DNA of 22,853 nt, taken from the IMG/VR virus record IMGVR_UViG_3300007516_000166, positions 1-22,853 of that record. One strand, written 5' to 3'. Made by a program: the position numbers and the translations under genes. Shown here piece after piece: positions 83 through 19,133 of this stretch. A model generated the notes under the pieces. It worked only from the letters and a program-made list of their open reading frames with translations, was not told the origin of the DNA and did not search any database. Source of the DNA: a virus. The stretch's first letter is position 1; every line of letters starts with the position of its first letter.

Positions 83-391
83 GATGCTAATGAATCAGTA
101 TCTAGAATTAAGAAAAACACCTTTATTTTAGAATCATTTGATGATTTTGAAAGAAGAGGAGCTATACATACAAAACCACATAGAAATGATGTTAGTACTA
201 TTGAATTTGACTTTGGTGATGATCACCATGAAGAAGAAGAAGATAATGGAGAATGTTTTGTTACTTGTAAATCATGTGGAGCTAAGAAAGAGGTTGAGGC
301 GGGAGAATATCCAATGGGATTAGACAATGAAGTTAATCCAGAGTCATGGTGGCAAGGAGCTTCTATGGGAATGCAATGTGGATGTAAGTAA
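2..391 (+). CDS. Acidic-repeat protein with C-terminal Cys cluster, 5' partial
   Basis: I do not recognise the family. The frame is open from the window edge, so the start is missing. The visible 129 residues begin with the Glu/Asp repeat, then a short stretch SFDDFERRG that resembles the N-terminal motif of neighbouring small proteins, an acidic EFDFGDDHHEEEEDNG region, and a C-terminal cluster CFVTCKSCG followed by QCGCK that could bind one zinc ion. The stop overlaps the next start by one base (TAATG), so the two are probably translationally coupled. In T4-like phages acidic proteins of this type may sit inside the prohead, but that role is inference. It could equally be a small zinc-ribbon protein with a disordered acidic arm. 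Confidence 0.8.
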   Translation, partial: EDEEEDEEEDEEEDEEEDEEEDEEEDEDANESVSRIKKNTFILESFDDFERRGAIHTKPHRNDVSTIEFDFGDDHHEEEEDNGECFVTCKSCGAKKEVEAGEYPMGLDNEVNPESWWQGASMGMQCGCK

Positions 392-747
392 TGAATAAGA
401 TTAAGAAACATAGAGTAGCAGAAAGTTTCGGTGATTTTATCGGAGCTACTGAAGTAATGCAAAAGGGTAATTCTATACAACCTGCACATTTTGGAGCTAA
501 CCCTGATTCAAATGATGATACTGATCTTCCATTTGAATTTGAAAGACGTCCAGAAATAGGGGGAAATATAGGAAATATCACTTTGTTATTAGATAAGATA
601 CAATCTATTTCAAATGCCGGAATTAATAAATCTAAATTATTAGATAATAAAGGACATAATATTAGTCCATATATTGAAAGACAAATTAATTTAGCATATA
701 AACATTTACGTGAAGGTTATCTTAGGATGATGGACATGAATATATAA
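391..747 (+). CDS. Hypothetical protein, possible prohead-internal protein
   Basis: 118 aa, no family recognised. Residues 10-18 read ESFGDFIGA, close to the SFGDFINES seen at the start of the gene at 2850, which hints at a shared N-terminal targeting motif. The usual Asn-Glu cleavage residues are missing here. The second half (from about residue 60) looks helical: IGNITLLLDKIQSISNAG, then INLAYKHLREGYLRMM. The ATG overlaps the upstream stop by one base and lacks a Shine-Dalgarno sequence. It lies in a plus-strand run of small genes leading to a baseplate gene, so a virion or assembly role is plausible but unproven. Confidence 0.8.
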   Translation: MNKIKKHRVAESFGDFIGATEVMQKGNSIQPAHFGANPDSNDDTDLPFEFERRPEIGGNIGNITLLLDKIQSISNAGINKSKLLDNKGHNISPYIERQINLAYKHLREGYLRMMDMNI

Positions 748-766
748 AAAAACAAATAAATTTATT

Positions 767-1084
767 ATGAAATTATCAATTATTTTATTAACAATATCAA
801 TAGTGGCTGCTTATTATTTTCTAGTTAAGAAAGGAAAGATTGCAGATAAAGATGGAGATTTTATTCCAGATGCAGTAGAAGATGTAGTAGACAATATAAA
901 AGACGAAGTAGCTAACGTTAAAACCGAAGTTAAACGCAGAGCATCTAATATTAAGACTGAAATAAACGATGTTTCAAAAGCAGTAAAGGAAGTAGGTAAT
1001 CAAATGAGTGATGTAGTTGAAGCAGCTAAAGGTAAACAACGAAAAGGTAGAAAACCTGCAGCTAAGAAATCTACTAAGAAGTAA
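767..1084 (+). CDS. Small membrane-anchored, lysine-rich protein
   Basis: 105 aa. Residues 3-19 form a hydrophobic segment (LSIILLTISIVAAYYFL), which I read as one transmembrane helix or an uncleaved signal anchor. Next comes a DKDGDFIPDAVED stretch resembling a calcium-binding type loop, then a long amphipathic helix of repeating Val/Lys/Glu heptads (about residues 40-90), and a strongly basic end (GKQRKGRKPAAKKSTKK). The basic tail could contact DNA or anionic lipid. No enzyme motif is visible. It is the last plus-strand gene before the convergent minus-strand island, and its stop lies three bases from that island's last stop. The A/T-rich leader has no Shine-Dalgarno sequence. Confidence 0.8.
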   Translation: MKLSIILLTISIVAAYYFLVKKGKIADKDGDFIPDAVEDVVDNIKDEVANVKTEVKRRASNIKTEINDVSKAVKEVGNQMSDVVEAAKGKQRKGRKPAAKKSTKK

Positions 1085-1086
1085 TA

Positions 1087-1299
1087 TTACATTAGTTCAT
1101 CTCCCAGATTAGAATATAATATTCGATCATCCCAATTTAATAATACATCAGAAAGCTCGTCACTAATCATGGCGAGCATTTCTATTTTAACGAGAGGTTG
1201 TGATGGTCCCCTTCCAGTTAATATATTTTCTTCTATTAGTTTTACCTTATTAAGGATATCTTTGTGCAATTCAGAAATTACTATTTCACTTTCGTCCAT
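1087..1299 (-). CDS. Hypothetical protein (70 aa), end of GIY-YIG operon
   Basis: Small acidic protein with no recognised family. It reads as mostly helical (SEIVISELHKDILNKVKLIE, then KIEMLAMISDELSDVLLNWD). Its start overlaps the end of the GIY-YIG gene by 19 bases, consistent with co-transcription in the three-gene minus-strand island at 1087-1827. The stop abuts the convergent plus-strand gene. Function unknown; it could be a partner or regulator of the upstream nuclease. Confidence 0.65.
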   Translation of the reverse strand: MDESEIVISELHKDILNKVKLIEENILTGRGPSQPLVKIEMLAMISDELSDVLLNWDDRILYSNLGDELM

Positions 1300-1538
1300 A
1301 ATTCTTTTTTATTTATTTTACTCAATTTCTTTATTTTATATTCTTCTTTAAGTGCTTCTGATTTACAAGTCGTGACATTAGAGTACACTACAACAACTGG
1401 GCCACGTCCTCTTGTATATTTTGCACCCTTACCTGAATTATGCTTCTCGACTCTCCGAGTGAGATCGTTAGTTATCCCAGTATAGTATGTTCCATCACTG
1501 CATTCTAGTATATAGACTAGCCATTGTTTATTCAACAT
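1281..1538 (-). CDS. GIY-YIG nuclease domain protein (YhbQ/UvrC-like)
   Basis: 85 aa, the length of a stand-alone GIY-YIG domain. Residues 8-20 (VYILECSDGTYYT) with G21 form the GIY...YTG core, followed by TNDLTRRVEKHNSGKG (Arg28/Arg29 and His33-Asn34), ARYTR-like KYTRGRGP, and the helix with the catalytic Glu (EALKEEYKIKKL, Glu61 or Glu65). The spacing matches the YhbQ/URI branch rather than I-TevI-type homing enzymes, which add DNA-binding modules. The family cleaves or nicks DNA with a divalent metal. It lies in the middle of a minus-strand island inside a plus-strand block, overlapping both neighbours, which suggests acquisition as a unit. It may process phage DNA, attack host DNA or act as a minimal selfish nuclease; the sequence does not decide. 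Confidence 0.88.
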   Translation of the reverse strand: MLNKQWLVYILECSDGTYYTGITNDLTRRVEKHNSGKGAKYTRGRGPVVVVYSNVTTCKSEALKEEYKIKKLSKINKKELWTKVK

Positions 1539-1827
1539 ATCTAAGATTAGCTCTTAACGTTACGTAGAAACATAAAGTATCAGCGTTAATGTGGTCGGAC
1601 GATCTAACTGCTGCGGATAGATCGTTTTTCAATATAGATTTGACAAATGATCCAGGAAAAGTGTTAATTTCCCAAGTATTCATCATAATGCTAGTTCCAA
1701 TATTAACGATATGCTCAAATGATTCAATATTCATCAAATGTTTTTGTCTAATTAAAGTACTGTTAGTGTTTGCGTATTCCCTAACAGCAGTCTTTATTCT
1801 AGTTTCATGATCTATGTTATATTCCAT
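1528..1827 (-). CDS. Hypothetical protein (99 aa), first gene of GIY-YIG operon
   Basis: No recognised family. It appears soluble and mixed alpha/beta, with no clear motif. Its 3' end overlaps the start of the GIY-YIG gene by 11 bases, so the two are likely co-expressed. A TATAAT hexamer lies about 8 bases upstream of the ATG on the minus strand, which would give an almost leaderless message if it is a real -10 box. It diverges from the plus-strand gene at 1880 across a 52-base A/T-rich gap that probably carries both promoters. Confidence 0.65.
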   Translation of the reverse strand: MEYNIDHETRIKTAVREYANTNSTLIRQKHLMNIESFEHIVNIGTSIMMNTWEINTFPGSFVKSILKNDLSAAVRSSDHINADTLCFYVTLRANLRYVE

Positions 1828-1879
1828 ACTTGTATTATACTAACTTTACTCAAATAAATAAAATAAAATAGATGTTAAT

Positions 1880-2227
1880 ATGCGTTATATAAAATTAGAT
1901 AGATTAAACGAGGATCATGAGAATCAACTGTCTCCTGAATTATTAAGAATGACAATTGGAGAAATGTTGGTTAAAGCTGGAGAATTGGACACCCAAGGAA
2001 ATGCTGAGTATGAGGTTATCGAAGATGCATTAAAAGCAATTAGCGATTATATATTAGGAAACGGATATTCAAATGACGAGGTTAATTTTACACCAGGAGA
2101 TGGTGTTGAAGCTCCGGATGAACAAAAAGAAATAATATCAGATGAAGAGGAAGTTCCTACGTTTGATCAGGTCGCAGGTGGCAATACTGGTAAAACTAGT
2201 GGAGCTGTGGACGATTTTGAATTTTAA
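1880..2227 (+). CDS. Acidic hypothetical protein with N-terminal LNE motif
   Basis: 115 aa, no family recognised. The start MRYIKLDRLNEDHE resembles the N-termini of several small neighbours (basic residue, hydrophobic spacing, then Leu/Ile-Asn-Glu), which I interpret as a possible capsid-targeting or protease-cleavage peptide. Residues 20-60 are helical (ELLRMTIGEMLVKAGELD). The C-terminal 50 residues are acidic and low in complexity (DEQKEIISDEEEVPTFDQ) and end in DDFEF. The stop is one base from the next start. A virion-internal or scaffolding role fits the context but is inference. Confidence 0.8.
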   Translation: MRYIKLDRLNEDHENQLSPELLRMTIGEMLVKAGELDTQGNAEYEVIEDALKAISDYILGNGYSNDEVNFTPGDGVEAPDEQKEIISDEEEVPTFDQVAGGNTGKTSGAVDDFEF

Positions 2228-2228
2228 T

Positions 2229-2570
2229 ATGAATATAAAGAAATTTAACGTATTTATAAACGAAGGTATCGGTGCTATTACAATGAATAGAACACCAGTT
2301 GATAAACTAAATAATCCAAACCATAATATAGCGCAGTCTAGGCCTATACCAATGGGAGGTTCTAGCCATATGCCCGCACAATGGGGTAGAGGTCCAGGTA
2401 CTGCACAAGGTTCTAGATATGGTAGTAATCCTACTATTAAAAGTAGAGCAATGACATATAGTGAATTTATTAAAAACTATAATACATCTAAAGAATCTAC
2501 AGATGATACCGAGTGCTCAGATTGTGATTTAGCTGATGATAAAATAACGAATAACAATGGGACATATTGA
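2229..2570 (+). CDS. Putative internal head protein with FINE|G motif
   Basis: 113 aa. The ATG at 2229, one base after the upstream stop, is preferred over an in-frame start at 2142. The longer form would add 29 residues read through the coding region of the previous gene and would bury the N-terminal motif. From 2229 the protein begins MNIKKFNVFINEGIGA, very close to the T4 internal-protein leader MKTYQEFIAEA, with Ile-Asn-Glu|Gly fitting the gp21 prohead-protease rule (Leu/Ile-x-Glu). The middle is Gly/Pro/Ser-rich and probably disordered. A second similar segment, MTYSEFIKNYN, lies near residue 80, and a CSDCD pair lies near the C-terminus. The gene overlaps the next by 14 bases. Confidence 0.8.
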   Translation: MNIKKFNVFINEGIGAITMNRTPVDKLNNPNHNIAQSRPIPMGGSSHMPAQWGRGPGTAQGSRYGSNPTIKSRAMTYSEFIKNYNTSKESTDDTECSDCDLADDKITNNNGTY

Positions 2571-2850
2571 TAATTTTAAAAAATGGGGTAACAAGGTAAT
2601 TAACTATATAGAAGAACAAGAAGGAGCTCGTGATATAATGAGTGTTCCGGATGAATTCAAAGCTGAGAACGACGTAATAACACAGCATAGAAATTCTATA
2701 GTTCAGATAGAGACTAATCTTGCTACTCAGAAAAAACAACTAAATGACCTAGTTACAGCACTACAAGGTAAAATAGCCGCGAAGAATTCAGTAGACGCAA
2801 ATGCAGTAAAGACTGCTCCTGCTCCTGCTATGGTTCCACCTACTGTATAA
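2557..2850 (+). CDS. Small coiled-coil protein
   Basis: 97 aa, no family recognised. Residues 45-75 (NSIVQIETNLATQKKQLNDL) look like a short coiled coil, and the C-terminus is an Ala/Pro-rich linker (APAPAMVPP). The N-terminus MGHIDNFKKWGNKVINYIEE is only loosely like the capsid-targeting motif of its neighbours. It overlaps the previous gene by 14 bases and the next by one (TAATG), so it is embedded in a coupled run. A small virion or assembly protein is the likeliest role. Confidence 0.75.
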   Translation: MGHIDNFKKWGNKVINYIEEQEGARDIMSVPDEFKAENDVITQHRNSIVQIETNLATQKKQLNDLVTALQGKIAAKNSVDANAVKTAPAPAMVPPTV

Positions 2851-3491
2851 TGAAGAATATTAAAGCAAAATCATTTGGAGATTTTATAAATGAATCAGAA
2901 TCAATTAATGATAAAGCGGAATTACTTGCTAGTAAAATCAAAGATGCGATAAATGAAGTAGATGATAGTTTAAGTTATGAAGACTTAGCTAAGGCTATCG
3001 CTATTGTGCTTAACGATTCATACGGAAGCCATAATACAGTACCATTTTTAGATGTACTTACTGATAATGTTGATGGTGGAGACATAAACGAGGCAGAGCA
3101 AAAAGTAGTTTATAATACTAATTTTACTGGGATGGTACAGGGTGCAGTTGGAAGTATTCATAGCCAGGTTATGGCAATTGCTAAATCAATGGCGGATGAA
3201 AAGGAAGCACGTAATCCGCATAGATATAAAGTTGCGGATAAAACATCTGGAGTAGAAGAAGTAGATATAACAAGAGCATTAAATCTTATTTTTCATAGTG
3301 ATTGGAAGAATATGATAAAGGGACATCATGTTCATCAATGGGCTAAATCATGTATAGATAGAGCAACTAAACACGATGAACGATCAAATAAGAAAAATCA
3401 AAGAGCTATTAGAACTCAAAGTGGACAACAACTCGATAACTACAAAGTAGACTTAGGAACACAGGGACATAGTAGAGATCTTGGACATTAA
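2850..3491 (+). CDS. Putative prohead-packaged protein with FINE|S motif
   Basis: 213 aa, family unknown. It starts MKNIKAKSFGDFINESES. Phe-Ile-Asn-Glu|Ser resembles a capsid-targeting peptide with a gp21-type cleavage point after Glu. The body contains an acidic helical region (residues 20-70), then VYNTNFTGMVQGAVGSIHSQ and an Arg/Lys/His-rich C-terminal third (HHVHQWAKSCIDRATKHDE, then KKNQRAIRTQSGQQLDNYK) that could bind nucleic acid. No catalytic motif is evident. The ATG overlaps the previous stop by one base. Packaging with the DNA is inferred from the N-terminus and basic tail. Confidence 0.8.
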   Translation: MKNIKAKSFGDFINESESINDKAELLASKIKDAINEVDDSLSYEDLAKAIAIVLNDSYGSHNTVPFLDVLTDNVDGGDINEAEQKVVYNTNFTGMVQGAVGSIHSQVMAIAKSMADEKEARNPHRYKVADKTSGVEEVDITRALNLIFHSDWKNMIKGHHVHQWAKSCIDRATKHDERSNKKNQRAIRTQSGQQLDNYKVDLGTQGHSRDLGH

Positions 3492-3509
3492 GAAAATTAA
3501 TAAACTAAT

Positions 3510-4244
3510 ATGAGCGAAGCAGAATTAATTGCAGATATAAATGATGAGATTACATACTCTGGAATGTTACCATATTCTCTTCCAGATAAGGAGATAAAAC
3601 GTATTCTTGCGATTGATGCGGCGTATTTCTATGACAACTGGAGATATGCAATTGAATCTAAATATTTGTTACTACCAAAGTCGTTGTTTAAAACACCAGC
3701 CTTTAAAAACGGTAGACAAATACTATTACCAGACTGCGTACAATTTATGGTTGAACTAAAGGAAGCGAAAGGTGGATCAATATTTGCGTCAATTGATAGA
3801 GATTTCTCAGAAGGTAAATTCATGGGATCTGAAATATTTCTTACTCCATTCATGGGAGAGTCTATTATGTATAGAACAATCATGTTTTCATTCCTAGATT
3901 TAACCAAAGGGATGATATTAGATACTATTGCATATGACTACAATAAAAATACAAAGCTATTAGGAGTTGTCGGAAGAACACCTAAGGCTGATGCAGTAGC
4001 TAAAGTATTTAAGAAGATTGAGATTGATAAATTATATAACGATGAATTATATCAGCGTCACGTCAGAGCACACGCTAAAGTTAGACTATCACATATGTTG
4101 CAAACATTTAACTATCAACTTCCAGGAGATGTTACAATTAATTATCAAAACATGGTAGCAACAGCAGAGAAAGAAATGGAAGAAGTAAAGACTATGATAA
4201 AGGGAGAATCCACTACCGATTGGATGTTCCTCGTTCACCAATAA
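3510..4244 (+). CDS. Putative virion structural protein (neck/connector type)
   Basis: 244 aa, with the look of a conserved phage structural protein. It starts with the acidic helix MSEAELIADINDEITYSGML, followed by aromatic/Pro-rich stretches (AAYFYDNWRYAIESKYLLLP), a beta-rich middle and a C-terminal helical part ending TTDWMFLVHQ. I recall similar proteins annotated only as structural in large myoviruses but cannot assign a T4 counterpart; it is not obviously gp13, gp14 or gp15. It is larger than its neighbours, lacks the FINE motif and sits two genes upstream of the gp25-like wedge gene, which supports a head-tail or baseplate role. The leader has no Shine-Dalgarno sequence. Confidence 0.75.
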   Translation: MSEAELIADINDEITYSGMLPYSLPDKEIKRILAIDAAYFYDNWRYAIESKYLLLPKSLFKTPAFKNGRQILLPDCVQFMVELKEAKGGSIFASIDRDFSEGKFMGSEIFLTPFMGESIMYRTIMFSFLDLTKGMILDTIAYDYNKNTKLLGVVGRTPKADAVAKVFKKIEIDKLYNDELYQRHVRAHAKVRLSHMLQTFNYQLPGDVTINYQNMVATAEKEMEEVKTMIKGESTTDWMFLVHQ

Positions 4245-4259
4245 AATAAATAATATTAT

Positions 4260-4796
4260 ATGAAACGCAATATACAGACATACATTGAATTTATCAACGA
4301 AGCAAAGGAGAAAAAAGAGAAGTTTTCTGATATGCATGATAATTACATTGATACAGATTATCAATCAAGTCTGCGCGATAATCCGCAGCGATATAGAAAT
4401 GATAAATCAGGGTTAGCATTAAACATGCTTAAGTTTATATATTCAGCTGGAGAAAAAGGAAGAAAGCACGGTGAAGTACAGCGATTTTTCTATGAACATG
4501 GAGGAAAAGAAAGATCTAGAACAGATTACACACTAGATAAGACGACAAATCAGGATGCTAGAGTGACTACGAGAAGAGGATTCGACTCAGTTAAAGATAG
4601 AGGAATGGGATCTACTATGCTTAGTGGGGGAGATTATTGGGGAAGACAAACCGGTATATTAAATGCACATTGTGAAAAGAACGATAGTGGAAGATGGGTA
4701 TTAACAGATAGTAAATTGAAAAGTATGTTAGATTGGACTGATGCTCTAGATGGAGCGTCAGACAATGATTTAGAAGTTATGAAAAATTTATTTTAA
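4260..4796 (+). CDS. Putative internal head protein with T4 IP-like targeting peptide
   Basis: 178 aa. The start MKRNIQTYIEFINEAKE is the best match in the window to the T4 IPI/IPII/IPIII leader MKTYQEFIAEA: Thr-Tyr-x-Glu-Phe-Ile-x-Glu-Ala is shared. In T4 that leader targets the protein into the prohead and is removed by gp21 after Glu, and the mature protein is injected with the DNA. The rest is basic and polar (KSGLALNMLKFIYSAGEKGR, then ERSRTDYTLDKTTNQDARVT), ends with an acidic helix, and shows no known enzyme motif. It sits one base before the gp25-like gene. I infer a prohead-packaged, possibly injected protein. Confidence 0.8.
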   Translation: MKRNIQTYIEFINEAKEKKEKFSDMHDNYIDTDYQSSLRDNPQRYRNDKSGLALNMLKFIYSAGEKGRKHGEVQRFFYEHGGKERSRTDYTLDKTTNQDARVTTRRGFDSVKDRGMGSTMLSGGDYWGRQTGILNAHCEKNDSGRWVLTDSKLKSMLDWTDALDGASDNDLEVMKNLF

Positions 4797-8204: not shown

Positions 8205-8516
8205 TTAGTCTCTATCTTCTAAGAATGAATCGGCTTCCTGTGGTCCAAGCTTTCCCTTTTCGACAAGCTTAAGTATTAATGCTGATATAGCAAGATTTTC
8301 TCCAGATTCTCCTTCTTTGAATTCTACTTCATTTTTCTCAAATGATGCGTTTAGTTCTTCAAATGCTTCTTTTGCACATTCTTCAACATCCTCTTCGGAT
8401 CCAACTAGCTCTACTAATTTATCTAGGATAGTTTCATCCATATCGATCGGAGTTTCAGCGTTTTCGTATATTTGTTTGGCATTGAATGCTGCGAATGATA
8501 AACTTAAATTCTTCAT
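8205..8516 (-). CDS. Small acidic hypothetical protein
   Basis: 103 aa, strongly acidic and mostly helical (PIDMDETILDKLVELVGSEE, then VEECAKEAFEELNASFEKNE). The start MKNLSLSFAAFNAKQIYENAE vaguely recalls the N-terminal motif of the prohead-type proteins (a Phe-x-x-Phe pair followed by Asn) but has no Ile-Asn-Glu. The gene lies between the primase gene and the hairpin ahead of gp4. No function can be assigned; an internal head or scaffold-like role is possible. Confidence 0.75.
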   Translation of the reverse strand: MKNLSLSFAAFNAKQIYENAETPIDMDETILDKLVELVGSEEDVEECAKEAFEELNASFEKNEVEFKEGESGENLAISALILKLVEKGKLGPQEADSFLEDRD

Positions 8517-8545: not shown

Positions 8546-9691
8546 TTATACAAATAATAAATCAAACTCAGACTCCGAGAAGTAACCTATTATTAGATCA
8601 TTAAATTCGTCAAATGTCATTTTATTATTAACCGCAATGTAAAAGTTATAAAGGTTATTAATATCCTTTATTTTATTAATTTGTTTACGCTCACTTGGAT
8701 ATTGATTACGTAGATCCCCTATTAGCTTAGACCACATAAATACCTTATATCCTTCCTTTAATAATTTGAATGTTTCCTTCTTTCCGGCATCATCATTATC
8801 GAAGAGTATACGTGCATTCTTTTTTGATATTAAGGTACCAAGTATATTCTTACTTTTAGTTACGCCAGTGGTCGCGATTGCATTCCTAAGGAACATGGCG
8901 TCTATTTGGCCTTCTAACACTATTATTGGTAGGTTAAATTGTATATTTAGTATGTTATAATAACTATTAATAATATCAATCTTAACTATTGTTGCCTCAT
9001 CGGATTTAGGAATTAGACCATTCTTTATAAACTGTGAGTAATTCTTAATATCATACTTGGGACCAGGATAATCATCACTTATTCGTCTGATTGATAAACC
9101 AAGTACGCGATCGGATCTATAATCAATATTAAAAATATACATCTTATCTTCTCTATTGTCATAATAACAGGACTTTTCGAATGCAGGAAGATCCATTAGA
9201 TTTCTGCCTCTAACATATATTCCAATAGGAGAATCAATGGGAGCATCTTTACATGGAGTTAAGAAGAATCGGTCAGCGAGTTGTTTGAAGTTTATTAATA
9301 TGTCTTTTACCTTAGGGTTCATTAGAAATTCTATGAGGGCTCCTCGTTTTGTTCCAGTCTCAACCTTTATATTACCGGCGTCACTTGATACATTTGGAAT
9401 AGGTAGTGAATACTTAGCAGCAAAATCTGTTATGAATCTAGTAAGCTTTGTGAACTTTAAACATCCGTCATTGAAACATTTATAAGTAGCAGTTTTAATA
9501 TATAAATTACCTCTCTTTTTTCCGGAATCTGTTTGTGAATCACCACAGTATGGACATGCAAAGTTAAGTTTATCATCGTCCTCATTATTAATTGACTGCT
9601 TAAACCTATTCCCTGGAAATGTTTTCTTGAGAACATCATTTACAAAATCAACAACTAGATATGTATTTTTTGTTTCTATAATATTATGCAT
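8546..9691 (-). CDS. gp61: DNA primase, gp61-like (zinc finger plus Toprim)
   Basis: 381 aa, near T4 gp61 (342 aa). An N-terminal zinc-binding domain has Cys46, Cys49, Cys72 and Cys77 (CPYCGDSQTDSGKKRG ... KCFNDGC). A Toprim-type catalytic region follows with EGQIDAMFL (first acidic motif, near residue 255) and RILFDNDDAGKKE (near 295). The family makes short RNA primers for lagging-strand synthesis with the replicative helicase. It overlaps the end of the polymerase gene by 8 bases, so the two are co-transcribed and probably coupled. No helicase domain is fused, unlike T7 gp4. Confidence 0.88.
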   Translation of the reverse strand: MHNIIETKNTYLVVDFVNDVLKKTFPGNRFKQSINNEDDDKLNFACPYCGDSQTDSGKKRGNLYIKTATYKCFNDGCLKFTKLTRFITDFAAKYSLPIPNVSSDAGNIKVETGTKRGALIEFLMNPKVKDILINFKQLADRFFLTPCKDAPIDSPIGIYVRGRNLMDLPAFEKSCYYDNREDKMYIFNIDYRSDRVLGLSIRRISDDYPGPKYDIKNYSQFIKNGLIPKSDEATIVKIDIINSYYNILNIQFNLPIIVLEGQIDAMFLRNAIATTGVTKSKNILGTLISKKNARILFDNDDAGKKETFKLLKEGYKVFMWSKLIGDLRNQYPSERKQINKIKDINNLYNFYIAVNNKMTFDEFNDLIIGYFSESEFDLLFV

Positions 9692-11246
9692 TTGATGCTA
9701 TTTTGTTATCGCGGTCAATGGCGCGCTGTTGTTTATCGGCCTGTCTTGCTATCGCGTGTTGTAGCTTCTCCTCGGACTTTCTAGTTTTTTCAAGTTCCCT
9801 TTCTACAGCAAGTAGATCCGATGCTATTATTCCAGCTGGACTAAACGCTCCAATTCCAAGCTTTTTTGATACTCTATTAATAAACGGTTTTAAGTTTTTA
9901 TTAATTATAAATGTGGTGTTTAACCCGTATCTTGTTATAAGTTGAAGGTATTCATCAAAGTCTTCTTCTGATACATCTTGATCCGGATCTCCAATAATAT
10001 CCCAGAATTTTTCTGGAACTTCTTCATGTGCTAATGTTGCTTCACATATTACATGATATGGATACATTTGATCTCGTGTCATTGGAGTATTAGTATTTGA
10101 TGTTTTAAATATTACAGATCTTCTCAATTTTTGGTCAATTGTATTAAGACCGATTGCTTTTAATATTCTATTAATAGGCTCGACAATTAGAATAAAAAAC
10201 TGCTGATCTAAATCTAGTTCAGGAATAATCTTAGTTGGATATTGACCAGGATTATATGCAAATAAGTCAATACCAAATTCGTTTGGTTTACAATATAGCA
10301 TTTTGTATTTTGACCCCTGTCGTATTCTAGGATATCTTCCTTCTAGATTATTCTTAAGTATTAGATAATTATGATGAACTACTGCCTTTGGGCCATTTGC
10401 GGCTCCCTTCTTTAGTACACAGTTTGCCTCACTTGTTATATACTTATCATATTGCCTAAGATTAAAACTTTGAGAGAATTCGTCAGGATGTAGTGTTAGG
10501 AATTCAGACTTTACTGTTTCAATCAGCGGAATCAAATCATTTTCTAAATCAATGTCAACTCCATTTTCTAGAAAGTATTTAATGAAATCAGTTTGATGTT
10601 TTCTTGCCCATTCCGGATATGACGCTTTAATTGGTTCTAATCCTTTAATTAATAAATACCTATCAGACTCATTATATAGTTCCTCCTTGGGATTAGGTTC
10701 ATATGATACCTTGAGCACATAGTTTTTCTTCTTTATCCATACTGCATTTTGTGCAATAAGTTCAAGTTTAAATGTCTGCCTATTGTCAGTATTAAACATC
10801 TTAGACCATTTTTCAAAAGCAGAATCATAAAATTCTCCAATTCTAAACTTATCAATTTCAATACATATTTTAATGCCTTCATCTTCTGTATAATCAAGGC
10901 CCTCAATTGATTTAAGCGCTGGTTCAAAATTAACATATGTAGAATCAGTATCTGTGTATATGGCTATAATAATGTTAGGATCTATCATATTAATAACGTG
11001 ATCAGATATTCCTAAATGTTGGTGAAGTTCAGTGTCTAGATGCCATCTATGTTTAAAATAAAAGTCAATCGCTTTATTTGCGAATTTAATCATGTCTTGC
11101 CCCTGGAGTGTAATAGACTGTGCTATTTCCGTATTATAAAAATAAAACCATTTATTTCCAAATGCTCCGTATATCGAATTAATTAAAATCTTGATCGCTC
11201 CTTGTTTAAGGGACAAATGTTTGATTAATTTTGACTTATCTTCCAT
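9684..11246 (-). CDS. gp43: DNA polymerase family B, C-terminal half only (split gp43)
   Basis: 520 aa. The protein starts almost directly at motif B: K19-ILI-N23-S24-I-Y26-G27, then the palm motif C Y-T-D99-T-D101-S102, then thumb-type sequence. The 3'-5' exonuclease domain and motif A (DFxSLYP), which precede motif B in every complete family-B enzyme, are missing. In-frame stops lie within a few codons upstream of the ATG at 11246, and the next gene upstream is on the other strand, so the N-terminal half must be encoded elsewhere. The C-terminus carries a helical charged extension (ELEKTRKSEEKLQHAIARQ). No intein-C sequence precedes the motif, so non-covalent assembly of two subunits is likelier than splicing. 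Split gene 43 is known in some T4-like Aeromonas phages. Confidence 0.88.
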   Translation of the reverse strand: MEDKSKLIKHLSLKQGAIKILINSIYGAFGNKWFYFYNTEIAQSITLQGQDMIKFANKAIDFYFKHRWHLDTELHQHLGISDHVINMIDPNIIIAIYTDTDSTYVNFEPALKSIEGLDYTEDEGIKICIEIDKFRIGEFYDSAFEKWSKMFNTDNRQTFKLELIAQNAVWIKKKNYVLKVSYEPNPKEELYNESDRYLLIKGLEPIKASYPEWARKHQTDFIKYFLENGVDIDLENDLIPLIETVKSEFLTLHPDEFSQSFNLRQYDKYITSEANCVLKKGAANGPKAVVHHNYLILKNNLEGRYPRIRQGSKYKMLYCKPNEFGIDLFAYNPGQYPTKIIPELDLDQQFFILIVEPINRILKAIGLNTIDQKLRRSVIFKTSNTNTPMTRDQMYPYHVICEATLAHEEVPEKFWDIIGDPDQDVSEEDFDEYLQLITRYGLNTTFIINKNLKPFINRVSKKLGIGAFSPAGIIASDLLAVERELEKTRKSEEKLQHAIARQADKQQRAIDRDNKIASNA

Positions 11247-11301: not shown

Positions 11302-11922
11302 ATGAAAGATGATTTAAGCAAAAAACTTACCAACGAATCCGAGGTATTTGACGCATACCCATTCTTATTATCATTTCCATTTAACGAGTATGTTATGTCA
11401 ATGGAAAAGGATGATGATTTTGCAACGTCATCTGGTATCGACCCAGTTGTCATAAGTGAGGCTGGGAAATACGTTAAGTTCGAATTTATTAATTTTAATC
11501 ATCAGAGTAAATATACTAAAATTACGCTGTCTTTTTATACTTATGATATAATGTATGTATCAGAAAACACAGAAAAAATTAAAAAGCTTGACTCAGTTAG
11601 AGAAAACTTAGATATGGGACTCACATCAAATAATATACTAGAAAAGATAACATGTATTAAGAGTGGAGAGGCCTTCCTTAAAAAAATAGGAAGTAGTCTA
11701 CCAGTAGGAAAGGCGCTAGATGGGATGTTTGACAAATTGTTAATATCTGGAGGATTCGAATTGAGTAAAAGTGAGACCCGAAAGATAAAGTCAATGTTTA
11801 AAACAATAAAGGAGGACGATTATGAACATGGTATCCAGAGCGTTATTAAATCGTTTTATAATATTCATTTACATCACATTAAGATATTATTAGGAGTAGT
11901 TATTGCATGTAAGATACATTAA
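11302..11922 (+). CDS. Hypothetical protein upstream of phoH
   Basis: 206 aa, no family recognised. It has an N-terminal acidic part (KKLTNESEVFDAYPFLLSF), a beta-rich central section (KYVKFEFINFNHQSKYTKIT), and a helical C-terminal half (SKSETRKIKSMFKTIKEDD) ending in a hydrophobic stretch, HHIKILLGVVIACKIH. That stretch is short for a transmembrane helix but could be membrane-associated. It is followed 13 bases later by the phoH-like gene and preceded by an exact late-type promoter box. The two plus-strand genes form a small island between minus-strand replication and recombination blocks. Confidence 0.75.
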   Translation: MKDDLSKKLTNESEVFDAYPFLLSFPFNEYVMSMEKDDDFATSSGIDPVVISEAGKYVKFEFINFNHQSKYTKITLSFYTYDIMYVSENTEKIKKLDSVRENLDMGLTSNNILEKITCIKSGEAFLKKIGSSLPVGKALDGMFDKLLISGGFELSKSETRKIKSMFKTIKEDDYEHGIQSVIKSFYNIHLHHIKILLGVVIACKIH

Positions 11923-12729: not shown

Positions 12730-13078
12730 TTAAACTGGAGGAGTAAAATCCTCCAGTTTAACAATCTTACTATTTAAAATTTCAAACTCCTGATCATTAT
12801 AAATATCAAGCCTAACATTTGAATGCTTAACTGAATATCCACTTAGATCATCGATGATGTCCCATATGATTACGACGTTCTTACCAACTAAGAATCTCAT
12901 TCCACGTCCAACCGCTTGTCTAATAGTTATTTCGGCTTTAGTTGATTCTGCAAATATAATGTGATGAACATTTTTACAGTCAATTCCAGTAGCAAAGGTT
13001 CCGTCAATACGAGGCAACTATAATAGCTGCCTCGTTCTTGTCCTCCGTTATGTTTTTATGAAAAATTGGTTTCGCCAT
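12730..13078 (-). CDS. uvsW: UvsW helicase, C-terminal piece (needs +1 frame change)
   Basis: The frame opened by ATG at 13078 reads a 15-residue leader MAKPIFHKNITEDKN, then EAA and the conserved IIVASY, and stops at UGA (13006-13004). The sequence resumes in the +1 frame as GTFATGIDCKNVHHIIFA, then ITIRQAVGRGMRFLVGK (motif VI) and VVIIWDIIDDL, to the stop at 12730. T4 UvsW has IIIVASYGVFSTGI here, so four extra bases (TGAC, 13003-13006) sit between the Tyr and Gly codons. Without recoding, only a TTG start at 13017 would give a 95-aa product, MPRIDGTFATGI.... The piece could be made by +1 frameshifting, by the TTG start, or not at all (a pseudogene). The ATG overlaps the end of the HNH gene by 23 bases. 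Confidence 0.7.
12731..12760. terminator. Hairpin between convergent phoH and uvsW genes
   Basis: A perfect 12-bp stem (TAAACTGGAGGA/TCCTCCAGTTTA) with a 6-base loop. It overlaps the last codons and stop of the UvsW C-terminal piece, so the stem's sequence encodes Pro-Pro-Val-stop. Neither strand has a long U-tract after it, so termination may be partial; protection of 3' ends is another possible role. Confidence 0.6.
13010..13034 (-). other. Strong RNA hairpin one codon before the uvsW UGA
   Basis: On the minus-strand RNA an 11-bp stem (CGAGGCAGCUA / UAGUUGCCUCG) closes a UUA loop. All pairs are Watson-Crick except one G-U wobble, so the pairing is better in this mRNA than in the opposite strand. 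The 3' arm ends immediately before UAU-UGA-C. The right arm encodes the conserved VAS of UvsW and the left arm lies in the non-conserved leader. Confidence 0.7.
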
Positions 13079-14033
13079 ATTTAGTATAATTAAATTTCCA
13101 ACCTATAGTATTAGCTACAGATTCTTTATTTTTTACATTATTAGATATTACAGGTTTTCCTGAGTTTCTAAATTTATTAATCAATCCTCTATTAAAATTA
13201 TGTGTCTTAACCATTAATCCTAATCCGTTAAATTCATGTATATTTCCAGATGGTGAGATTGCTATTACCTTACGATTAGATGTCTTTCGATTATTCATAT
13301 TTTCTCTAAATGCAGGATCCTTCCATTTTTGTTTAATTGATTCGCTAGCACTTGCTCGTTTAATCGGATCTTTATTAACAATGTTCATTGTGTTATTAAA
13401 TCGCTGCTTATCTATAGGATTCATATTATCCCACATTTTACTAGATCGATTTGACATCTCGTTTGGATTATTCTTAAAGTATTCAGTCATTTGTTTACTT
13501 TTAATATTTCTCCGGTCAGATGTCCAACTGTTCTTATTAGATATGCAACGCTCAATATATTGAGATTCAGTTAGATTATCCCACATTAATTGGGATCTCC
13601 TAGATCTTTCGATGCTACTTAATGATTTAATATGCTCAGATCTATCATCACAAAATTTCTTATATTTAACGGGATTGTTCTTTAATTTAATCCATCCTTT
13701 CTTAGCAGCTTTAGATATTAATTCAGTATTCTTAGATGTTTGACTTTTCATAAAATTCAAAGGACGTAATGTTGCTCTATTTATATATGCGTTTGCTAAT
13801 AACTCATGTGAAAAAACATGATCACTATATAATAAATTAACTATATTCCAGCTATCGTTCTTATAATCTTTGAATAATGATCTAGGCAGAATATGATGAT
13901 TTTCTGAATATCCGTCACATGTGCTTACATAATTTAGTGTAAAATCTAAATATTCATTTAGAAACTCAATTGAATCAGGTTCTCCTAATTCAGTGATCAT
14001 TATATCTATAATTTTATTTTTCATATCAGTCAC
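13056..14033 (-). CDS. HNH homing endonuclease interrupting uvsW (second break)
   Basis: 325 aa. The HNH core is near the N-terminus: His46-His47 (ENHHILPRSLF), Asn63 (WNIVNLLYSDH) and His72/His76 (DHVFSHELL). After it come about five short basic repeats built around Trp and Asn-Pro (GWIKLKNNPVKYKKF, LMWDNLTESQYIER, EYFKNNPNEM, MWDNMNPIDKQ, KWKDPAFRENM), typical of DNA-recognition modules in phage HNH homing enzymes. A NUMOD1-like segment ends the protein (AISPSGNIHEFNGLGLMV). The gene is free-standing, lying 18 bases after the stop of the UvsW middle piece and ending within the leader of the C-terminal piece. Such enzymes cut intron-less or insert-less alleles to spread their own gene. The surrounding spacers are far too short for a group I intron. 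Confidence 0.88.
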   Translation of the reverse strand: MTDMKNKIIDIMITELGEPDSIEFLNEYLDFTLNYVSTCDGYSENHHILPRSLFKDYKNDSWNIVNLLYSDHVFSHELLANAYINRATLRPLNFMKSQTSKNTELISKAAKKGWIKLKNNPVKYKKFCDDRSEHIKSLSSIERSRRSQLMWDNLTESQYIERCISNKNSWTSDRRNIKSKQMTEYFKNNPNEMSNRSSKMWDNMNPIDKQRFNNTMNIVNKDPIKRASASESIKQKWKDPAFRENMNNRKTSNRKVIAISPSGNIHEFNGLGLMVKTHNFNRGLINKFRNSGKPVISNNVKNKESVANTIGWKFNYTKYGETNFS

Positions 14034-14051
14034 AGTCCTAATAGCTTTTAG

Positions 14052-14888
14052 TTATTTATTAGACTCTATCCATGAATTAGCAACATCGTCATCTAATGTT
14101 ATATCTTTTGCTAATTTAACTTTTTTATTAGTTAGTGTAACTCTCTTAAATTGACTAACTTTAATTTCAATATCATCCGCAAACCTAAGTATTGTTTTTG
14201 CGCTAGGTTCTTCCATCACATTTTTTGCGTCTTCCCGATCTGGGGTTTCAACTCCTCCATCAATATAAAAAGTATTTGGGTTCCATTCTTTTATTGCATT
14301 GTGAATTCTAAATCCATACTCATTCTTAACATCTGAAAATAGTATCAATGTGTTCTTTCCAAATTTCTTAGTAATTCTACTTATGAATTCGATTCTCTCA
14401 TTAGAGTCAAATATAATTTCCTTCTCTATTTCAAGCATACGTTTACCGAATTCCATAGGATCTCTGAATTGATCCTTTACTTTCTTACGTAACGTCTTGT
14501 TAGTTTGTATCTTTACATACTCGGCTATTCGTGGGTCATTCATATCATACTCGAGGAACACCTGCTTGATTTTAATATCAGGAGAGTAATCATTGTCCAT
14601 TAGGAATTTAGCACTAAGTGTCATAACAAGTGGACCAGTTCTTTCTTGCATTGTATAGAAGTCAGAATACTCTAAATCAATTTTCATTGTTCCAGATAAT
14701 CCAAGTTTATATTCCCAGTTTACACATGATGCTAAGATATCTCCAATTGACTGCCCACGTGCCTTGTGACAATTCGATACGCTAATTCCATTAGCTATAT
14801 AATTATGGTTAAGTCCATCCTCTGATTTTATTCTAAGATTATATACATCACCTACATAATCTATTTTATTGATTGATTTAATTCTCAT
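14052..14888 (-). CDS. uvsW: C-intein fused to UvsW middle piece with Hint-like tail
   Basis: 278 aa in three parts. Residues 1-39 are a split-intein C fragment: MRIKSINKIDYVGDVYNLRI, then HNYIANGISVSN with terminal Asn39. The +1 residue is Cys40, giving CHKARGQS, which completes the DECH box started in the upstream gene. Residues 40-233 are UvsW: KLGLSGTMK (motif III), NTLILFSDVKNEYG (motif IV region), FYIDGGVETPDRED, then NVMEEPSAKTI. Residues 234-278 (LRFADDIEIKVSQFKRVTL to SWIESNK) are not UvsW. They resemble the block-B end of the N-intein at 15739-16032 but lack its Thr and His. ATG overlaps the previous stop as ATGA. After trans-splicing the product is UvsW up to motif V. Confidence 0.92.
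   Translation of the reverse strand: MRIKSINKIDYVGDVYNLRIKSEDGLNHNYIANGISVSNCHKARGQSIGDILASCVNWEYKLGLSGTMKIDLEYSDFYTMQERTGPLVMTLSAKFLMDNDYSPDIKIKQVFLEYDMNDPRIAEYVKIQTNKTLRKKVKDQFRDPMEFGKRMLEIEKEIIFDSNERIEFISRITKKFGKNTLILFSDVKNEYGFRIHNAIKEWNPNTFYIDGGVETPDREDAKNVMEEPSAKTILRFADDIEIKVSQFKRVTLTNKKVKLAKDITLDDDVANSWIESNK
14772..14888 (-). other. Split intein, C-terminal fragment (39 aa)
   Basis: Block F (VYNLRIKSEDGLNHNYIANG) and block G (GISVSN|C) are clear. The terminal Asn and the +1 Cys needed for trans-splicing are present. The penultimate residue is Ser, not the usual His. With the 98-aa N fragment the total is 137 aa, the size of an endonuclease-free mini-intein. Confidence 0.92.
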
Positions 14889-15697
14889 ATAAATTGTTTT
14901 AATAATCTCTTTAACCTATCTTTTTCTAATTGATTTTCTAATATTTCATTACTGTAATTATCTTTGAACCATTTACCTGAGATGACTTTGAATTTAAAAT
15001 CATTTAATTTCGCCCAATCTTTTGCTGCGCTGAACTTTATTTTATTAACTCGAGTCTCCTTTAAACTATCCGGTTTTATCTCATATAATATTTTATTATT
15101 AATATCGACAAAATCCATTACGTAATTATGAAATTCACCGTCTATAAAATATGGAACTCTTACTTTTTCGTATAATAAATTTGGATTGACAATTTGAAAA
15201 TATGCATCCCATGATGATCGACATTTAACTATAATATCCTTTCCGTTTTGGTTAATATTAACCTTGCATCTGGATTTGGCCCAGCTATTAGTTACACATG
15301 GAGTCCATTCTCCGTTTGATATTTTAGCCTTTAGTGTATTAGAAATCTTCCGGTTTGCAGCATGTTTAGTTTCATCGGACATCTTATGACTATTGTTATT
15401 ATCGCCAATCATATTATCAGATCTCCATTTATATAAACAATATCTAGAGCAGAAATTTTTATATCCTTGTCCAAAATTTTGAAACGTATTACTATTTCCA
15501 CATCTGCAATATTTACCATTATTATCTAATAGGTGGTCGTATATATTTTGCTCTGTTATAATAGATATAGGGATGTTTATATTTTCCTTATTTAACCAAT
15601 ATATATATTTATCGTCTTTACACTTAAATCCATTCATCATAATGAAATATTTTCTATTTACTTTAATGTATTCGTAGAGTTCTAAGTTGCTCATCAC
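14885..15697 (-). CDS. PD-(D/E)XK homing-endonuclease-like gene between split-intein halves
   Basis: 270 aa. A treble-clef-like zinc site (Cys64, Cys66, Cys83, Cys87; CRCGNSN ... NFCSRYC) is followed by a NUMOD3-like stretch (GDNNNSHKMSDETKHAANRK) and a nuclease domain: Arg160-S-S-Trp163-Asp164, Asp195 (VMDFVDINNK), Glu206-I-Lys208 (ILYEIKPDS), then KFSAAKDWAKLNDFKFKVI. This is the PD-(D/E)XK/Vsr-like core and closely parallels gp4 in this window. Its position, between N- and C-intein genes of one host protein, matches the 'fractured gene' arrangement known from marine metagenomes, where a Vsr-related endonuclease lies between split-intein halves. It overlaps the C-intein gene by 4 bases and has an exact late-promoter box upstream. 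Confidence 0.85.
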   Translation of the reverse strand: MMSNLELYEYIKVNRKYFIMMNGFKCKDDKYIYWLNKENINIPISIITEQNIYDHLLDNNGKYCRCGNSNTFQNFGQGYKNFCSRYCLYKWRSDNMIGDNNNSHKMSDETKHAANRKISNTLKAKISNGEWTPCVTNSWAKSRCKVNINQNGKDIIVKCRSSWDAYFQIVNPNLLYEKVRVPYFIDGEFHNYVMDFVDINNKILYEIKPDSLKETRVNKIKFSAAKDWAKLNDFKFKVISGKWFKDNYSNEILENQLEKDRLKRLLKQFI

Positions 15698-15712
15698 TTA
15701 TGATCTTTATTT

Positions 15713-15720
15713 TATTTATA
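15713..15720 (-). promoter_or_regulatory. T4-type late promoter before the split-intein endonuclease
   Basis: An exact TATAAATA on the minus strand, 15 bases upstream of the ATG at 15697 and just after the stop of the N-intein gene. It would give the endonuclease and C-intein/UvsW piece their own late transcript. T4 intron endonucleases also use late promoters. A chance match is possible in A/T-rich DNA. Confidence 0.45.
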
Positions 15721-15735
15721 ATAGATTCATAAGAA

Positions 15736-16887
15736 TTAATCATAAATTGATAGAATGTCATCATCTAATGTAAGAAGATCAACTCTTTTATATTCTCCGG
15801 ATATTAATTTAACTTTATGGTTGCCCGTAATTTTTACTGTTTCATTATTATCTAATTCAAGTTCATACATTTGATTATTCTTTGATAAATTTTTATGTAT
15901 ATAATCAACTTCTCTATTCTCAATATCAAATGTATTATCATTAACAGTTTTTACAATATCTCCTTTTTGTATATCGCATATCTTTACAATATCTCCATTT
16001 GATTTAGTAATCATCATATCTGGGTGTAAACATTCATCTACACATACAACAGAGAAATCTGAGCATATATCCATGATCTTAGCGTTTGCTAGTTTACGCT
16101 TCAGGTTCATTAGATCAGTTTGACGCTTCTCCTCTTCTCCTTTCTTAATACCTTTCATGATTAAGTTCCCGAGTTTATTATCTAAACATTTAGGAACAAG
16201 ATTAAGCATACTTTGATACGTTGTAATTAACATATCACATTTAGCAAATTTATCTGCGTCGAATTCTCCTTTCTTTCCTCCAACACAATGAATATTCCAA
16301 TCAACTAATCCGTTAGAATATTGATGGAATGCCTTAGCCGTTTGATTAACTAGACTTACATTAGGTACAATCAGAAGCATCTTTGATTTCTTGTTAATTG
16401 TTCCTACATATTTTAGATAAGAAGCATATGTATAGAATATAGATGTTTTCCCACTCGATGTTGCGAGCTCCTCACAGCAAAACTTATACTTAAGTGCACG
16501 ATATGCTCCTTCAAATTGATAATCTCTTGGATAGAATGGTTCACCCTTGTCAGTAAGTATACCTTTATATAAAGACTTGACGAATTTCTCATAATTATGT
16601 CTATTTAGTTTTAGGTCGAGCATTGGTTTTATTGCATCAACATCAGTAGGTATGTCATAATTAGCGGTGAAATTAGCTAATTCTTTCCATAACCCGATTG
16701 GAATTGTCCATTCCTTTGTCATAAAATGATCCATACCATCCCATGTTCCATTTTCAACAGCCTTATTAAAGTCCGCATCCTTTGACTTCTTTTTAAAGAA
16801 GCTATAAAGATAATCTCTATGTGAATTTAATTCATACGATACGACTTTAAGATTCTTTAAGTCATCCGTGACTTCTAATCTAATCAT
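15736..16887 (-). CDS. uvsW: UvsW helicase N-terminal piece fused to N-intein
   Basis: 383 aa. Residues 1-285 are the N-terminal and first RecA-like domain of UvsW: FYPRDYQFEGAYRALKY (Q-motif region), ATSSGKTS (motif I, 142-149), LLIVPNVSLVNQ (Ia), ITTYQSML (Ib) and VVCVDE (281-285, first part of motif II). At Cys286 the sequence changes to an intein N fragment of 98 aa ending at the stop. UvsW is an ATP-dependent SF2 branch-migration helicase that unwinds recombination intermediates and R-loops and shifts T4 from origin- to recombination-dependent replication. Unspliced, this piece has half of the DECH box and should be inactive. It starts directly after the UvsY stop; T4 likewise places uvsY next to uvsW. 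Confidence 0.93.
   Translation of the reverse strand: MIRLEVTDDLKNLKVVSYELNSHRDYLYSFFKKKSKDADFNKAVENGTWDGMDHFMTKEWTIPIGLWKELANFTANYDIPTDVDAIKPMLDLKLNRHNYEKFVKSLYKGILTDKGEPFYPRDYQFEGAYRALKYKFCCEELATSSGKTSIFYTYASYLKYVGTINKKSKMLLIVPNVSLVNQTAKAFHQYSNGLVDWNIHCVGGKKGEFDADKFAKCDMLITTYQSMLNLVPKCLDNKLGNLIMKGIKKGEEEKRQTDLMNLKRKLANAKIMDICSDFSVVCVDECLHPDMMITKSNGDIVKICDIQKGDIVKTVNDNTFDIENREVDYIHKNLSKNNQMYELELDNNETVKITGNHKVKLISGEYKRVDLLTLDDDILSIYD
15739..16032 (-). other. Split intein, N-terminal fragment (98 aa)
   Basis: Block A is CLHPDMMITKSNGDIVKICD followed by IQKGDIVKT, with Cys1 as the nucleophile. Block B is YELELDNNETVKITGNHKVK, with the conserved Thr and His (TGNH). The fragment ends RVDLLTLDDDILSIYD. 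The insertion point lies between Asp-Glu and Cys-His of UvsW motif II, a conserved active-site position typical for inteins. Confidence 0.93.
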
Positions 16888-17383: not shown

Positions 17384-17860
17384 TTAGCTTATAAATTTGT
17401 AGTATTTTGAATCAATTGAGTAGAAATCATCACCATCAAGTTCATCTATGTTGTTTGACGTAAATAGATTTTCACCGATATCGACTCTTTCTCCTTGAAT
17501 GTATAAGTCTGGATTATTTGATCCATATTCCGCGATTACAATTCTTAGAATATCAAAACGTTTGGTTAGTTTACGTACTCTTTTATCAAGATCAGTTCCT
17601 TCTCCGAATATAAAAACACTTGGATATAAATCAGCAGCATTATCAGATCTCTTTAGATGGAATGTTTGTTTGATATATTTTTCATCAAATAATTCACCCT
17701 TTATACATTTATCCAATGCTTCCTCTGTATTAAAGTCAATAATGATATATGGTAATTTAGATTGTATTGTATTACGAACGTCGGGCCATGAGTAGTGTTT
17801 TTCTAAACTCTTCTCTTCAAGGTCGGTATATTCTTCATATAAACGGATATATTTACGCAT
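17384..17860 (-). CDS. Hypothetical protein, first gene of recombination block
   Basis: 158 aa, no family recognised. The start MRKYIRLYEEYTDLEEKS resembles the targeting-peptide pattern of other small proteins here (basic residues, Tyr/Phe pair, Leu-Glu-Glu). The body has strands such as LPYIIIDFNTEEALDKCIKG and a central FIFGEGTDLDKRVRKLTKRF. It is separated from uvsY by 64 bases of A/T-rich sequence without a clear signal, and diverges from the kinase-like gene at 17956. An AATAAATA box upstream could be a weak late promoter. Confidence 0.75.
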   Translation of the reverse strand: MRKYIRLYEEYTDLEEKSLEKHYSWPDVRNTIQSKLPYIIIDFNTEEALDKCIKGELFDEKYIKQTFHLKRSDNAADLYPSVFIFGEGTDLDKRVRKLTKRFDILRIVIAEYGSNNPDLYIQGERVDIGENLFTSNNIDELDGDDFYSIDSKYYKFIS

Positions 17861-18563: not shown

Positions 18564-19106
18564 GTGAAGAATCGCGTTAATAATTTTAAAAAGTTCGAAA
18601 GATTGAACGAACAAGACGAGGCTGTAAAAGCAGAGACATCACCACTAATAGGATATTCAGAAGATATGATAGTTAGCAGAATATCAGAGCTAATGGAGAT
18701 AATGCCAGATAGCACTAAATTTGGAGTTCCTGCTGATAATAAAGGAGCATCATTATCATATAGAGATGCAAACGGAGCTATCCAGAAAATTCAAGATATT
18801 GCACATTACTATAACAGTAAGTCAGAAGAAGTAAAATTCTATTGCTGGAATATCAGTTATGCTGGATCTTGGGATGCTACTAAAAGTTTAAGAGAAAAGA
18901 TCGATGAAGCAGGTGGATTCGGAACCGAGCAGAATATGAACCTTAAAAAGGTAATCAAATATTTTACAGCAAATCCTGAAGATGTAGATAACGTAAGAAG
19001 TTTATCAATTTCGATAGATGCTATGTCAATTAGAAAGAGCAAGGAAAGTAGTAGTGACGATTCTGCAAACTATCCACAACCTGATGAAACTGAAGGTAAA
19101 GATTAA
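18564..19106 (+). CDS. Putative prohead-packaged protein, GTG start
   Basis: 180 aa from GTG at 18564. An in-frame TTG at 18558 would add only Met-Ser, but GTG gives MKNRVNNFKKFERLNEQDEA, which fits the MK...F..F.(I/L)NE leader of the other small genes. Leu-Asn-Glu|Gln suits prohead-protease cleavage. The body contains AIQKIQDIAHYYNSKSEEVK, a Trp-containing WNISYAGSWDATKSLREK segment, and a Ser/Asp/Glu-rich tail ending DETEGKD. Family not recognised. It sits between the kinase-like and ligase/NMNAT-like genes. Confidence 0.75.
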   Translation: MKNRVNNFKKFERLNEQDEAVKAETSPLIGYSEDMIVSRISELMEIMPDSTKFGVPADNKGASLSYRDANGAIQKIQDIAHYYNSKSEEVKFYCWNISYAGSWDATKSLREKIDEAGGFGTEQNMNLKKVIKYFTANPEDVDNVRSLSISIDAMSIRKSKESSSDDSANYPQPDETEGKD

Positions 19107-19133
19107 GTATAAAACTCAATAACACTTTACAAT

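Follow-up and report, generated by a model that had tools for sequence, protein, structure and literature searches.

The internal proteins of phage T4 are injected into the host, and its gp67, gp68 and gp22 are structural components of the prohead core. The T4 leaders bring proteins into the scaffold core and are then removed by gp21 (PMC5694885; PMC3012670). The leader itself also targets foreign proteins (PMC3012670). The DNA analysed here (the window) is a virus record of 22,853 bases with a gp20-type portal, a gp25-like baseplate gene and a neck-like gene. Its source is an uncultured T4-like phage, of which the window is a fragment. Using the portal, we gathered relatives from IMG/VR, 80 loci and then eleven longer records. 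Genes were called with a simple in-house caller, so individual starts may be wrong.

Several otherwise unrelated proteins of this clade begin with the same short leader. We believe, with good confidence, that it is a T4-type capsid-targeting sequence which has expanded in the clade and is cut after its Glu during head maturation. We infer that the leader proteins bind, are cleaved, enter the head and, by analogy with T4, may be injected.

Leader-bearing genes of the window

The full leader form, M..IK.[FY]..FINE/[AGS] (a slash marks the predicted cut throughout), opens the three window genes that start at 2229, 2850 and 4260. The original prediction singled out this shared leader, and it is real, with letters and coordinates correct. 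The features are as follows, with scores from the leader profile described in the next section.

1880..1912, + strand: short form, site only, MRYIKLDRLNE/D, of the 1880-2227 protein; low profile score
2229..2264, + strand: full leader MNIKKFNVFINE/G of the 2229-2570 protein; predicted cut after Glu12, profile score 18.7
2557..2616, + strand: possible weak site NYIEE/Q of the 2557-2850 protein; orthologues mostly have [IL][TE]E/Q
2850..2894, + strand: full leader MKNIKAKSFGDFINE/S of the 2850-3491 protein; predicted cut after Glu15, profile score 23.9
2895..3092, + strand: extra segment of the 2850 protein between leader and conserved core, with two further INE sites
4260..4301, + strand: full leader MKRNIQTYIEFINE/A of the 4260-4796 protein; predicted cut after Glu14, profile score 20.8
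8463..8516, - strand: doubtful site AKQIYE/N of the 8205-8516 protein
17834..17860, - strand: possible leader of a different form, MRKYIRLYE/E, of the 17384-17860 protein
18564..18611, + strand: short form (RLNE) MKNRVNNFKKFERLNE/Q of the 18564-19106 protein; low full-profile score

The proteins at 1880 and 18564 had been described as RLNE variants. Their letters are right, but the full leader is lacking, and only its [IL]-x-E end is kept. Some orthologues of the 18564 protein do have a full leader, for example FTQYLKE/E and FKQFLNE/A. Three looser forms had been proposed as well, and they part ways on inspection of orthologues. At 17384, L[YF]E is conserved in most orthologues with a full N-terminus, although it is a different form from the main leader. 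At 8205 there is an I-x-E in close relatives but not in the wider family. At 391 we reject a cleavable leader, since orthologues have no conserved [ILV]-x-E. The weak site at 2557 was missing from the original list.

The extra segment of the 2850 protein is about 63-66 residues long and is absent from every other orthologue. Its second INE (Glu81) restores the usual junction, INE/AEQKVVYNTNF. The segment would be excised if the protease model set out below holds.

The genes with clean leaders adjoin neck and baseplate genes and belong to families that recur in several to many relatives. None of the window's leader proteins matched Pfam over the cut-off, and the 2850 protein had no match among 50,697 phage records. 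Residues 6-38 of the 4260 protein touch PHROG 2667 (internal head protein) at E 0.016, a weak match in the right place, and it is the sole window protein to touch that family. Structure models are of low confidence, with mean pLDDT of 61 (2850) and 58 (4260). A fold search with the 4260 model returned mostly winged-helix-type rows (best Z 5.7), which is too weak to use, and viral models gave nothing useful.

Other genes of the window have peculiarities of their own. On the minus strand at 12730-16887 a UvsW-like helicase appears, by eye, to be split over three ORFs. Its first break has intein-like halves (VDECLHPDMMI... and ...YIANGISVSNCHKARG) with a nuclease-like ORF at 14885-15697 between them, and its second holds an HNH-like ORF at 13056-14033, both also judged by eye. 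At 9684-11246 on the minus strand a DNA polymerase is represented by its C-terminal part only. Because an opposite-strand ORF (11302-11922) lies where the rest would be expected, the gene may be split or moved. The 19134-20954 protein has a nucleotidylyltransferase-like motif, NFQPIHNGHIKAAEKL, in its C-terminal part, and its N-terminal part looks ligase-like by eye. A small ORF at 1281-1538 on the minus strand, VYILECSDGTYYTGIT, resembles a GIY-YIG endonuclease, again by eye.

Enrichment of the leader and its match to T4

Within the window F[IL]NE occurs four times in the first 24 residues of proteins and never internally. One of the four, the FLNE of the 13056 ORF, is not a leader; we reject it as a chance match inside a homing-endonuclease-like ORF. 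The original prediction had also proposed a genome-wide motif search, and this was carried out on nine related records (1,120 genes), leaving out G001 and G007 as near-duplicates of the window virus and of G008. Every gapped three-residue word in the first 25 residues was compared with internal segments. Among 55,876 N-terminal words, INE (43 observed against 7.8 expected, p ~1e-18) and F.NE (35 against 6.5, p ~1e-15) are the two most enriched, and the next-ranked words (K..NF, NF..F, FI.E, K.F..F) are pieces of the same pattern. This pooled count includes orthologous genes from different records repeatedly, so it is the counts for single records that matter. For these, 40 non-redundant leaders were turned into a position-specific profile, from which the genome under test was left out each time. 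It finds an excess in every record, with observed and expected numbers of 16 and 1.1 in G021, 13 and 0.55 in G024, 11 and 0.85 in G027, 8 and 0.28 in G008, and 3 and 0.54 in the window. The codons for the shared residues vary from gene to gene in G021, which means that the likeness is held at the protein level and that recent copying of a DNA cassette is not its cause there.

Strong leaders mark 75 proteins, which fall into 44 core families; 32 of these families were seen once. What these proteins have in common is the hallmark of a T4-type capsid-targeting sequence, an N-terminal leader of 10-20 residues on otherwise unrelated proteins. The relatives also encode 116 homologues of core T4 genes, for replication, portal, protease, tail and other functions, and not one of these has the leader. 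Most leader proteins have no recognisable domain, and Pfam gave no match for ten further ones. The domains that Pfam does recognise include NUDIX, peptidoglycan-binding, chitinase-like and nucleotidyltransferase. Two NUDIX-type proteins have a full leader; one (L127:3341-3835) is a Pfam match and the other (L102:10051-10542) was grouped with it by BLAST. The idea that the phage loads a large and variable set of proteins fits the relatives, with their 32 once-seen families, better than it fits the window.

The proposed likeness to T4 internal proteins has held up well. A profile trained without T4 ranks IPII first (19.8 bits) and IPIII second (18.9 bits) among 518 T4 ORFs. Third is gene 61.1 with 13.9 bits, and the next ORF scores 7.6.

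Gene 61.1 deserves a comment of its own. It lies at 18966-19130 of NC_000866 and reads MKTFKEFIKE/DMVAGDSGGNPENISIGTTSGAV. Past the predicted cut it resembles the mature N-terminus of gp23 (GD.G.N..NI..G.TSGAV, 14/28 by eye). It has matches in 1,386 phage records, and among the matches listed all 12 of 12 are unnamed or hypothetical. It may be an overlooked head protein.

Predicted cut site, protease and scaffold-like repeats

Across orthologues the Glu and the Ile, Leu or Val two residues before it are nearly fixed, and the residue between them varies, as is typical of protease sites. All 31 complete N-termini of the 2850 family have Glu at the cut and I or V two residues before. The 1880 family has [LI]-x-E in 9/9, with N, H, S, L or F in the middle. 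In the 2229 family, counted by hand on the alignment, 21 of 22 keep [LIV]-x-E, with any of nine residues in the middle; the site persists even in leaders reduced to MKRLxE/G. The major capsid protein has [LV]-F-E/Q at about residue 54, and one relative has I-N-E/S at the same aligned place. The capsid protein of Sphingomonas phage PAU is reported to be shortened from 585 to 520 residues (PMC5646251), and we find that this falls within one residue of LME64 (LME/N). The sites in orthologues, capsid protein and PAU together fit a protease that reads [ILV]-x-E.

It could be argued that the leader is a protease site only, which marks proteins for trimming while targeting resides elsewhere in the protein. 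Orthologues that retain just [LI]-x-E after a very short start, such as MKRLTE/G, are what this argument would expect. However, the upstream [FY]..[FY] is conserved across unrelated proteins, and the T4 leader is itself able to target foreign proteins (PMC3012670), so we think this explanation unlikely.

No gp21 or Peptidase_S77 gene was found in the window, which is a 22.9-kb fragment. Among the longer relatives, 13 of 28 have a Peptidase_S77 over the curated cut-off (40-48 bits against 27), as do all five of the named phages tested that have a related portal. In the PF03420 controls, four known T4-like phages passed the cut-off and the control genomes did not. The relatives' protease also matches PHROG 207, head maturation protease (E 2.6e-31). 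Its ORF has about 660 residues, and the C-terminal part is a run of 14-residue repeats with the consensus KSINYSEY[LIV]AEKLN over 70 repeats; autocorrelation peaks at 14 and 28 in 8/8 proteins. We infer that this region is a scaffold, because it follows the protease and precedes the capsid gene and because of how the fused protein of phage PTm1 is annotated.

The repeats look like leaders. The leader profile finds 3-8 sites in the repeat region, whereas shuffled copies contain about 0.2 on average and never more than 2, and among all proteins of the relatives it is the protease-scaffold protein in which internal leader-like sites are commonest. The T4 leader YQEFIAE is intermediate between the repeat YSEYLAE and the clade leader FSQFINE. 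In LR756500 the scaffold repeats keep the 14-residue period, but a profile of that phage's own leaders did not single out its scaffold, and the likeness to the repeats was not reproduced there. From these sequence comparisons we suggest, tentatively, that the leader is one copy of the scaffold's own repeat. A cargo tag would then pack like an extra 14-residue repeat of the protease-scaffold fusion and carry the same cut site, and in this clade it would serve as a general loading code with which a phage could take a dozen or more unrelated proteins, enzymes among them, into its head and exchange them.

A leader with some function unrelated to heads, such as translation start, membrane contact or a partner shared by infection proteins, seems to us very improbable. 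Short N-terminal segments do act in many ways, and the leader part of the structure models is predicted to be helical, at low confidence. Such a function would not account for the resemblance to T4 internal proteins, for the leader-like repeats of the scaffold or for the site in the capsid protein.

If the leader is a capsid-targeting sequence, the following course of events can be proposed. The [FY]-x-x-[FY]-[ILV]-x-E segment is probably a short helix and would join the scaffold core while the prohead core is forming. In the relatives this scaffold is fused to the protease and made of 14-residue repeats of similar form. Once the shell is complete, scaffold, capsid protein and leaders would all be cut by a gp21-type protease at their [ILV]-x-E sites, just past the Glu. 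The trimmed, mature proteins would stay in the head with the DNA.

This leaves the question of what the marked proteins do. They could all be structural parts of the prohead core, like gp67, gp68 and gp22 of T4, which are cut and partly cleared, with no cargo delivered and nothing injected. In favour of this, most relatives have the 2850 and 2229 families, beside neck and baseplate genes, and the scaffold repeats contain the same sites. Yet the 32 strong-leader families seen once, some with NUDIX, nucleotidyltransferase or cell-wall domains, are unlike a fixed core part, and as a general account we find this one rather doubtful, if well worth keeping in mind. We prefer a capsid-targeting leader that serves both kinds of protein. 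The conserved members at 2229, 2850, 1880 and 18564 are probably head-core or internal proteins. The variable members found in the relatives probably form an interchangeable cargo, part of which would enter the host in the way T4 internal proteins do. Because their families recur in relatives and adjoin neck and baseplate genes, the three clean window proteins may be head-core parts and not injected effectors.

Comparison with known systems

If these ideas are correct, the head-carried proteins of many uncultured T4-like and huge phages could be predicted from N-termini alone. It would also become possible to say, in concrete and testable terms, what a capsid-targeting sequence recognises, namely the scaffold repeat. 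The leaders would further point to a set of proteins, most of them unknown, which may affect the host or its defences as infection starts. A literature search that covered few subscription papers found no report of such a leader in this clade.

The closest likeness is to T4, where the IPII/IPIII leader MKTYQEFIAE/A and gp21 offer the same short N-terminal [FY]-x-x-F-I-x-E on unrelated proteins, Glu at the predicted cut and a related protease family. The residue before the Glu differs, being Asn in the clade and Ala in T4. The number of marked proteins per genome also differs, reaching up to 16-24 as opposed to 3 in T4, and gp21 and gp22 are separate genes in T4 whereas the relatives fuse protease to repeat scaffold. 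Such leaders are few in the classical T4-like phages (3 in T4, 5 in KVP40, 2 each in HTVC008M and phiM12, 0 in S-PM2) and in PTm1 (2), while LR756500 has 24 leaders in 340 kb.

In the giant phages of the SPN3US and phiKZ type the prohead protease likewise cuts head proteins after x-x-E, but the motif is A-x-E in SPN3US, and there are mostly long propeptides with no short leader common to many proteins (PMC5694885). The 'prohead core scaffolding protein and protease' of Tenacibaculum phage PTm1 is also a protease fused to scaffold-like repeats, but the repeat sequence is another one, and despite the protease hardly any genes bear a leader. PAU has a gp21-type protease and one leader, MKT[LI]xxLYE, on 19 genes, two of them annotated as internal capsid proteins; its leader letters are different, and its protease is a separate protein of 246 residues with no repeat region. 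The general idea seems to be shared among related phages, in dialects that differ between them.
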